A stretch of DNA of 37,876 nucleotides, taken from positions 1 through 37,876 of the forward strand of contig PAOQ02000015.1 of assembly GCA_002708105.2 (NCBI GenBank). The letters are read 5' to 3'. This document shows positions 22,771-24,961 of the stretch, one piece after another. Numbering within the stretch: position 1 is the first letter of the stretch; each line of letters opens with the position of its first letter. The stretch is from a bacterium (lineage in GTDB: Bacteria; Desulfobacterota_D; UBA1144). The notes under the pieces are model-generated. The model saw nothing but the letters and a program-made list of their open reading frames with translations. It was not told the origin of the DNA and did no database searches. The position numbers and the translations under genes are program-made.

Positions 22771-23580
22771 TTATTCCCCGGTAAATTTAGGAGTTCTCTT
22801 TAGTTTAAAAGCATCTTGAGCCTCTATATAGTCTGAGCTATTAGCAGCTTTAATAATAGTTTTTTTAATCTTTTCATATTCATCTTTATCTACCTTCTGG
22901 CTACTTTCAAATGTATTTATAGATTTTTTTATTGATGCAAGTGATAAAGGTGCATTTTGAGAAATTTTTTCGCCAAATTTTATTGATTCATTTAAAACCT
23001 CATCTTTGTCAATTATAAAATCAAAAAGATTCATTTCTAATGCATTATCAGAATTAAATTTATCACCTGTAAAAAAAATTTTCTTTGTATTTGATACTCC
23101 AATTTTATTAATAAAATTTCGTAAACCAAAATAGTTATAAAAAATTCCTAACTTCACCGGAGGCATGCAAAAGATGCTTTCTTTTGAAAAAAATTTAAAA
23201 TCACAATTCAACATTACTTCTAAGGCACCGCCAAATATGCTTCCATTAATTGCCGCAATAATTATTTTTGGACTTTCACTTATAACTTCAGATATTTTCA
23301 TTAAAGGGTGTTTATCTTTGCTTTCATCTAAAATATGAATATTAAGAAGTGATTCTTTTGAATCCATGTTATCAGAGGAGATATCGTATCCTGATGAGAA
23401 AATTTTTTCACATTTTGATGTAATAATGACTACTCTAATTTCTAACAAGTCCCTTGTTTCATCGATTAAATTAGAAACAGTTGTTAGCATTTCTTCGTTA
23501 AAAGCATTTTTTTTATCAGGTCTATCAAAAGTAATAATTCGAATATTATTAATATCTTCAAATTTAACAAACTTACTCAT
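22771..23580 (-). CDS. Crotonase-family protein, ScpB (methylmalonyl-CoA decarboxylase)-like
   Basis: Enoyl-CoA hydratase/isomerase superfamily, 269 residues. The oxyanion-hole segment FGGALEVMLNCD is near residues 116-127. Recalled comparison with E. coli ScpB/YgfG shows specific likeness: MPPVKLGIFYNYFG versus MTPVNLGVPYNLVG, and C-terminal SSDYIEAQDAFKLKRTPKF versus SEDYQEGMNAFLEKRKPNF. Tyr148 lines up with the ScpB active-site Tyr140. The ScpB His66 position is Tyr65 (SSGYDI). The second catalytic Glu of true hydratases is missing (Lys143 in that region), so simple hydratase activity is unlikely. Methylmalonyl-CoA decarboxylation or another acyl-CoA reaction is plausible but unproven. It is a single gene, divergent from the FmdB-like pair with 42 bp between them. 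Confidence 0.8.
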   Translation of the reverse strand: MSKFVKFEDINNIRIITFDRPDKKNAFNEEMLTTVSNLIDETRDLLEIRVVIITSKCEKIFSSGYDISSDNMDSKESLLNIHILDESKDKHPLMKISEVISESPKIIIAAINGSIFGGALEVMLNCDFKFFSKESIFCMPPVKLGIFYNYFGLRNFINKIGVSNTKKIFFTGDKFNSDNALEMNLFDFIIDKDEVLNESIKFGEKISQNAPLSLASIKKSINTFESSQKVDKDEYEKIKKTIIKAANSSDYIEAQDAFKLKRTPKFTGE

Positions 23581-23622: not shown

Positions 23623-24168
23623 ATGCCATTATATGAATTTGAATGTAAAGACTGTATGAAGAAATACAATAAAGATATTACTGCTTTGTCTGAATCTTTG
23701 GATAAAGAGACTGCCGAGAAGGTTATGAAAAGAAATAAGAATTTTCTTTATATTGAAGTTCAGCGTATTAAAAATGAAAAAACAATTTTTTCTGTTGGAA
23801 AAGAGGGTAATAAAGGTATTAGAAGATACAGATATAAAATGGCTAAAGATAAATTATTATTTTTAGAGTTAAAAGATTTTAGATTCACGGAGTTATTTTT
23901 TCAAGATGAAGAAATACCCTCTACTGTTGACTGTCCGTCAAACAAAAAATGTAAAAATGTAGTTAGAATCTTTTCGCCCTTTAAAGCAATTTTTGAGAAA
24001 AGGGGTGGACTTAAAGATAGAGCTCCACAGCCTGGAGACCCTGTTCAATGGCATAAAGATTACAAGGTTATGAAAGATGAAGAGCAAGCCTCGAACTGGG
24101 TTGGGCAAGACCATTTGGACCAATACTTTGGTAATTCACAACATGATGGTTCTTATGGGTCCGAATAG
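23623..24168 (+). CDS. FmdB-like zinc-ribbon protein with large internal insertion, copy 1
   Basis: Function unknown. The N-terminus MPLYEFECKDC is the first knuckle of an FmdB-type zinc ribbon (C8, C11). In ordinary FmdB proteins the second knuckle follows about 20 residues later. Here about 90 charged residues intervene, and a candidate second knuckle C104-x5-C110 is followed by NVVRIFSPF, matching the family's EVRRLISP strand. A polar tail of about 60 residues rich in Asp, Gln and Gly ends the protein (181 aa). No signal peptide or membrane span is seen. The next gene begins with the same 27 nucleotides and shares the layout, so the two are tandem paralogs. The ribosome binding site is weak (GCGAG at 23612-23616). 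Confidence 0.8.
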   Translation: MPLYEFECKDCMKKYNKDITALSESLDKETAEKVMKRNKNFLYIEVQRIKNEKTIFSVGKEGNKGIRRYRYKMAKDKLLFLELKDFRFTELFFQDEEIPSTVDCPSNKKCKNVVRIFSPFKAIFEKRGGLKDRAPQPGDPVQWHKDYKVMKDEEQASNWVGQDHLDQYFGNSQHDGSYGSE

Positions 24169-24176
24169 GAGTTCTT

Positions 24177-24716
24177 ATGCCATTATATGAATTTGAATGT
24201 AAAAGTTGTAAAGAAAATCTTTTTAAAGCTCTTGCAATGATTGAGAAAAAGATTGATAAGAAGACTCTGGCAAGCATTATTAAAAAATTTAAAAATATAA
24301 ACGGAATACAGGTTGTAGATTTAGTTTCAGAAGAATTGATTCAATCTTTAGGTGCAAGAGAAGAGCAGGATCTTGAAATTGATTTATATATTGATGAAGG
24401 GAAAAAGATGGTCTTATTTTATGTCCCTTCTTTTAGATTTTCAGAGTTAATTTTTGATGAAGAAGATGAAAAGAATCTTGAAACTAAGTGTTGTAAAAAA
24501 GGTGATATCGAGAGAGTAATTTCCTCATTTTCATATACTTCTGATTTGTCTACCGATGCTCCAAAACCTCCAGGTTTAAAAGACTTGCCTCCAGAAATTC
24601 GTGGGAGAGTTAATTTTAGTGAAATGATTGAACCAAAGGATCAACCAGCAAACATCAAAGCTGATAATCGATACAAGCATCAGTATATGGATAAGTCCAA
24701 AACTAAACTACTTTAA
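24177..24716 (+). CDS. FmdB-like zinc-ribbon protein with large internal insertion, copy 2
   Basis: Function unknown; paralog of the preceding gene. It begins MPLYEFECKSC (C8, C11), followed by a roughly 90-residue charged region containing PSFRFSELIFDEEDE (compare KDFRFTELFFQDEEI in copy 1). The second knuckle is reduced to adjacent C105-C106, then GDIERVISSF. Intact zinc binding is therefore uncertain. The tail is Pro-, Lys- and Asp-rich; a short DAPKPPG resembles RAPQPGD in copy 1. At 179 residues it is nearly the same length as copy 1. It starts 8 bp after copy 1 with AGGAG at 24167-24171, so the two are co-translated. Outside the N-terminus and the second-knuckle region the copies have diverged strongly, which suggests an old duplication. 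Confidence 0.8.
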   Translation: MPLYEFECKSCKENLFKALAMIEKKIDKKTLASIIKKFKNINGIQVVDLVSEELIQSLGAREEQDLEIDLYIDEGKKMVLFYVPSFRFSELIFDEEDEKNLETKCCKKGDIERVISSFSYTSDLSTDAPKPPGLKDLPPEIRGRVNFSEMIEPKDQPANIKADNRYKHQYMDKSKTKLL

Positions 24717-24733
24717 AGATATTCTTTTGATAA

Positions 24734-24961
24734 TTATCTTGGGTTATCTTCTACGTATTTAATAAACTTGATTAAGATTCCTTTCTTATCATCTGGAATA
24801 TCTTTGTAAGATTGCTTAAATTTAAGCTTAATCATCAGCAGAATATGAGCATAAGGATTCCTTCCTTTAGGATGATTCTTGTTGACAGGCAATTTGTCCT
24901 TCAACCTATCTCCTGTTTCCTGTATTATTGACCAAAGTTCTTTGCGATTTTCTTCATTCAT
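24734..24961 (-). CDS. Small conserved-looking protein of unknown function, coupled to hisE
   Basis: A 75-residue soluble, basic protein that I do not recognise. It is probably all-helical: an N-terminal helix MNEENRKELWSIIQETGDRL, a central turn with NHPKGRNPYAHI, then helices with KLKFKQSYKDIPDDK and ILIKFIKYVEDNP. No cysteines, signal peptide or membrane span are present. Its ATG overlaps the end of hisE by 8 bp on the same strand, a spacing typical of translational coupling, which argues that it is a real gene. The 3' end faces FmdB-like copy 2 with a 17-bp gap. The pattern of aromatic and Gly/Pro turns suggests a folded small domain, not random sequence, but no function can be assigned. 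Confidence 0.65.
   Translation of the reverse strand: MNEENRKELWSIIQETGDRLKDKLPVNKNHPKGRNPYAHILLMIKLKFKQSYKDIPDDKKGILIKFIKYVEDNPR

Follow-up and report, generated by a model that had tools for sequence, protein, structure and literature searches.

The window, by which we mean the whole 37,876-nucleotide stretch analysed here, belongs to a metagenome-assembled genome of Candidatus Dadabacteria (0.91 Mb, 88% complete), a group in which genome streamlining is known for the marine members (PMC8115339). It carries two adjacent genes, copy 1 (c1) and copy 2 (c2), which start with the same 27 nucleotides, as the earlier note had stated and as a check of both reading frames and of the identity confirmed (Table 1). 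The two genes are separated by 8 nucleotides, and an AGGAG sequence, the likely Shine-Dalgarno site of c2, overlaps the c1 stop codon. From this arrangement we infer that c1 and c2 are likely co-translated. A promoter and terminator scan returned matches at chance level only, and no obvious signal peptide or membrane segment was seen by eye in either protein. The gene that diverges from the pair, previously described as ScpB-like, encodes an enoyl-CoA hydratase/crotonase-fold protein, which is compatible with that description if methylmalonyl-CoA decarboxylase was meant.

Table 1. Features of the paired genes and their surroundings (positions in the window)
Feature	Position	Strand	Basis
Enoyl-CoA hydratase/crotonase-fold neighbour, divergent from the pair	22771-23580	-	Pfam match
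c1, interrupted FmdB-type zinc-ribbon protein, 181 aa	23623-24168	+	ORF, profile matches
c1 first knuckle, C8-x2-C11	23644-23655	+	Invariant in all c1
c1 insert, residues 12-84, predicted alpha2-beta4	23656-23874	+	Insert-less relatives, excision test, AlphaFold, insert profile
c1 second ribbon half (FRFTELFF...CPSNKKC...VVRIFSPF)	23875-23982	+	Ordinary FmdB match after excision
c1 second cysteine pair, C104-x5-C110	23932-23952	+	Cysteine comparison of relatives
c1 signature tail (FKAIF..RAP.PGD..WH.DYK..KDEE...WVGQDHLDQYF)	23983-24165	+	Tail profile
AGGAG across c1 stop codon, likely Shine-Dalgarno of c2	24167-24171	+	Sequence reading
c2, interrupted FmdB-type zinc-ribbon protein, 179 aa	24177-24716	+	ORF, profile matches
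c2 first knuckle, C8-x2-C11	24198-24209	+	Cysteine comparison of relatives
c2 insert, residues 12-84, predicted alpha2-beta4	24210-24428	+	AlphaFold, profile comparison, insert profile
c2 second ribbon half (SFRFSELIF...TKCC...IERVISSF)	24429-24530	+	Ordinary FmdB match after excision
c2 second cysteine pair, adjacent C105-C106	24489-24494	+	Cysteine comparison of relatives
c2 signature tail (SYTSDLSTDAPKPPGLKDLPPEIRG...EPKDQP...)	24531-24713	+	Tail profile
75-aa ORF between pair and HisE	24734-24961	-	
HisE (PRA-PH) half of HisIE alone, 116 aa	24954-25304	-	

Both proteins begin with the MPxYEYxCxxC start of the FmdB family, and their N-termini match TIGR02605 (FmdB) as well as PF09723 (Zn_ribbon_8). 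In the uncut proteins the PF09723 match is confined to residues 1-16 (c1: 22.0 bits, E 1.7e-4; c2: 23.3 bits, E 6.6e-5), with both scores below the curated cut-off of 34.4 bits. The cysteines lie at the positions given in the earlier note (8, 11, 104 and 110 in c1; 8, 11, 105 and 106 in c2). In a contiguous ribbon the second CxxC follows within about 20 residues, whereas 92 residues separate C11 from position 104 in the window. The earlier description of about 90 charged residues between the knuckles was correct in length and character (37-40% charged), but about 19 of these residues are ordinary FmdB sequence; the true insert comprises 73 residues (12-84).

Excision of residues 12-84 in silico raised the PF09723 score of c1 to 34.9 bits (profile positions 1-39 of 41) and that of c2 to 33.2 bits, just below the cut-off (positions 1-41 of 41). 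Excised relatives scored 31.3 to 46.5 bits, and the c2 protein of one of them (L029) fell from 37.2 to 30.4 bits if 6 extra residues were left in place. In profile-profile comparisons the excised cores matched ordinary FmdB proteins with E values of 2e-23 and 5e-26. The inserts gave no match to ordinary FmdB in these comparisons, and the insert alone matched none of the zinc-ribbon families. The second half of the ribbon is also recognizable without excision: the best TIGR02605 stretch of uncut L029 c1 is its second half (residues 88-120), uncut L029 c2 gives two matching stretches, and three uncut relatives (L016 c1, L029 c1 and L029 c2) exceed the TIGR02605 cut-off. Among c2 copies, a contiguous ribbon occurs only in the insert-less c2 of three genomes (G036, G044 and G047), which has the same tail and occupies the same place. 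That the pair might be unrelated to FmdB and carry a similar N-terminus by chance, a reading that the 16-residue match of the uncut window proteins would allow, is virtually excluded by the excision and profile-profile tests, by second halves of relatives that match FmdB by themselves and by the natural insert-less relatives; the N-terminal match, whose failure the earlier note had named as grounds for refutation, proved real and extends to both halves.

c1 and c2 are thus FmdB-type zinc ribbons in tandem, and in each a 73-residue insert directly follows the first CxxC. Because the window proteins lack a contiguous double knuckle and score below the full-protein cut-off, we do not class the pair as ordinary FmdB. 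With that family (TIGR02605 CxxC_CxxC_SSSS, PF09723) it shares, beyond the common start, the xFxEL strand, the second cysteine pair, the V/I-RxxSxF strand and a polar tail, and the excised cores match almost the full extent of the family. The pair differs in having a predicted folded domain between the knuckles and in being a fixed tandem of two paralogs, whose signature tails are long and conserved. In keeping with the earlier note, no described family with this layout was found in Pfam, NCBIfam or the PDB. Several members gave a weak secondary match (best E 0.001, far below the cut-off) to DUF1178 (PF06676), which we take to be another FmdB-like ribbon family. Ordinary compact FmdB genes exist elsewhere in Dadabacteria, with a match above the cut-off in 54 of 58 genomes. 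Two loci of family f4 (L073 and L074; G023 C6 and G029 C20) encode another type of FmdB protein, 165 aa in length, in which the ribbon is uninterrupted and the long, acidic, conserved and probably helical tail ends in DETLYEL.

The boundaries of the insert, from the CxxC to 3 residues before the FxEL strand, are fixed independently by the insert-less c2 relatives. AlphaFold2 models built with 19-20 relatives predict two helices and four strands in the same HHEEEE order in both inserts. The pLDDT was 94-96 for residues 11-60 and 91-95 for residues 61-80 of c2, and about 72-90 in the c1 insert (about 83-90 for residues 11-60); it was low for the tails of both copies. The middle region, for which the earlier note had considered disorder, is therefore predicted to be folded in both copies. 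The c1 and c2 inserts matched each other in profile-profile comparison (E 9e-7, probability 91%). Few residues are invariant across both. Given the relatedness of the inserts, the domain was most likely acquired before the gene was duplicated; gene conversion between the copies is a less likely alternative.

A Foldseek search with both models returned no match at E <=0.001 (best E 0.017). The top neighbours of the c2 model were CACHE/PAS-like sensor lobes (KinD 4jgo/4jgp, TlpC 5wbf, TlpA 6e09, CqsR 9nia) at E 0.017-0.09 and a probability of mostly 0.8-0.99, with several KinD and CqsR chains superimposing at about 2.7 A over 58-59 alignment columns. Such lobes were also among the top matches of the c1 model. 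However, the insert is smaller than these lobes and shows no sequence match to them, and CACHE/PAS-like domains are normally extracytoplasmic, unlike the pair proteins as judged by eye. Pfam profiles found nothing significant in the inserts (sCache_3_2 at E 0.23 in one member only), a PDB profile search with the insert gave no relevant match, and no solved relative by sequence was found in the PDB. A roadblock/LC7 fold was also considered, but the fold search gave no support for it.

The insert profile found exactly two matches per genome, the pair genes, in 18 of the 19 Dadabacteria with matches, and one in G036. No credible match was obtained in about 368 outside genomes; a hit in G282 (E 6.9e-4 among 387 genomes) equals the chance expectation, and its translation is not FmdB. 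Across the genomes searched, the insert profile thus gave no sign of a mobile domain shared with other proteins. The C-terminal tails, the best-conserved parts of the pair proteins, behave alike: each occurs once per Dadabacteria genome, and neither was found in about 248 outside genomes. Within the genomes searched, the tail profiles thus gave no sign of docking motifs shared with other proteins.

In the tree, c1 and c2 form separate clades (support 100/100), and the tandem paralogy proposed in the earlier note is supported. A single duplication took place before Dadabacteria radiated, after which a distinct conserved tail became fixed in each copy. Within the genus of the window, dN/dS was <=0.14 for the insert and <=0.04 for the tail (0.01-0.02 for the c1 tail) where estimable, values that are rough with many dS saturated. 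The insert-less c2 falls in family f5, with weak tree placement of these short rows. As other f5 members carry the insert, it was probably either lost or the N-terminal half was replaced by an ordinary FmdB. The insert is thus dispensable in c2 of some lineages. We regard this account of the anatomy and evolution of the pair with high confidence.

The tandem pair is present in 53 of 58 Dadabacteria genomes; in three of them (G049, G054 and G042) contig ends or a frameshift interrupt it. This recurrence throughout the phylum answers the concern that close relatives might lack the pair, and shows that the pairing is not a chance observation. In the remaining five genomes (G011, G025, G041, G048 and G052) HisIE is missing as well, and the enoyl-CoA hydratase is either absent or truncated by the start of a contig; as these neighbouring genes are affected too, assembly gaps are likelier than true absence. 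In a survey of 389 genomes, matches outside the phylum covered the ordinary FmdB ribbon only, and in a wider contig scan all loci among the matches listed fit Dadabacteria by title or similarity; rare occurrences in other groups may exist. Insert, tails and pair layout are phylum-specific in everything searched. A viral origin was also considered; viral contigs contained no relative, and a viral fold library gave nothing useful. Most of the families sampled share the order crotonase / pair / HisIE, and many also have era and aspS close by; these neighbours give no pointer to function. Note that in the G042 locus (L076, C57 11400-12700) a frameshift within the insert breaks c2 into overlapping frames of 59 and 102 aa; the break may be genuine or an error of assembly. 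Note also that record CACLTT010000006.1 (L046) holds the Dadabacteria pair and gene order under the label uncultured Candidatus Hydrogenedens; this organism name looks wrong.

Zinc ribbons of the FmdB family are found widely, but their function is obscure. Functional papers on them are scarce, and a search of the literature for interrupted ribbons gave nothing relevant. In Burkholderia cenocepacia, Tn-seq insertions in the FmdB gene BCAL0878 fall in the 3' half only, a pattern indicating a putatively essential N-terminal ribbon (PMC8770471). The pair shows which parts of such a protein are modular: a domain can be accommodated inside the putative metal site and dropped again in one copy, and the second cysteine pair can change its spacing with the paralog-specific tails remaining fixed.

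We propose that the two ribbon halves come together around a single metal, from which the insert would project as a lobe of its own, and that c1 and c2, made together, would act as cytoplasmic partners. The ribbon may then provide a contact surface for nucleic acid or protein, and the tails may dock paralog-specific partners. The CACHE/PAS-like insert could serve as a sensing or dimerisation lobe whose state would reach the ribbon via the flanking strands. The overall explanation, split-ribbon paralogs acting as partners with the insert as a separate lobe, we consider about evenly balanced between right and wrong. The likeliest of the roles considered, that of a paired cytoplasmic zinc-ribbon adaptor or regulator, is put forward tentatively and falls short of probable. 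A ligand-sensing function of the insert, as opposed to scaffolding alone, is unlikely. The most elaborate version, a long shot, is a phylum-specific two-subunit sensor in which a PAS/CACHE-like domain between the halves of one zinc site would couple ligand binding mechanically to metal-site geometry, with c2 specialised by altered ligand spacing. As versions with and without the insert both occur in nature, the domain lends itself readily to testing.

Alternatively, the insert may only lengthen or dimerise the ribbon, and the pair may be a structural or assembly factor, for example one associated with RNA or the ribosome. This possibility, somewhat on the unlikely side, would fit the strong conservation of the tails relative to an insert with few invariant residues, as well as the ability of c2 to lose the insert. 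Zinc ribbons are, moreover, common in translation and transcription proteins. On the other hand, profile searches gave no ribosomal or RNA-binding family match above noise.

The second knuckle distinguishes the copies and the families. In c1 it reads CPx4C in 12 of 12 sequences listed from f1, the streamlined marine family holding the window, and CPxC in every sequence listed outside f1. In c2, families f3, f4 and f8 have CxxC, most members of f2, f5 and f6 have CxC, and f1 shows CxC, CxCC, CPCC or CC. Four or more cysteines are kept in nearly all copies compared; L025 c2 has just three, and L014 c2 is without C11. The earlier note had read the c2 motif as erosion. Given the intermediates and the near-constant retention of four cysteines, we interpret it instead as re-spacing of the fourth ligand. 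The cysteines, with their variable spacing, suggest that the pair proteins may bind metal.

The variety in spacing could also mean that the cysteines are redox or disulfide centres and not structural zinc ligands, a reading we consider decidedly unlikely. The change of the second c2 pair to CxC and CC would agree with it, and proposed FmdB variants with CxxU or UxxU selenocysteine motifs, reported from marine metagenomes and in a review, hint at thiol chemistry (PMC2398784, PMC13188914). However, nearly every copy retains the first CxxC within an FmdB ribbon context, zinc-ribbon profiles recognise the proteins after excision, and the genes linked to the pair include no redox partner.

Very improbable is a decay of the site, in which metal binding is being lost in the streamlined marine lineage, first in c2, and function is fading. 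CC in c2 and CPx4C in c1 do occur only in the family of the window, and C11 is gone from L014 c2. Against this, CPx4C is invariant among the f1 c1 sequences listed, at least four cysteines usually remain, insert and tail show dN/dS values of 0.00-0.14 (many dS values being saturated), and the genes are kept in genomes of about 1 Mb. A two-gene unit that outlasts genome streamlining in marine Dadabacteria is a good candidate for a core function.

Downstream of the pair, the window encodes the HisE half of HisIE alone, at a site where other genera mostly have a fused HisIE protein of 215-244 aa. In G001, G002, G003 and G008 a separate contig carries HisI; a search of G000, which is incomplete, did not find it. 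The 75-aa reading frame between the pair and HisE has no Pfam match and is kept in 5 of 5 compared loci of the window's family.
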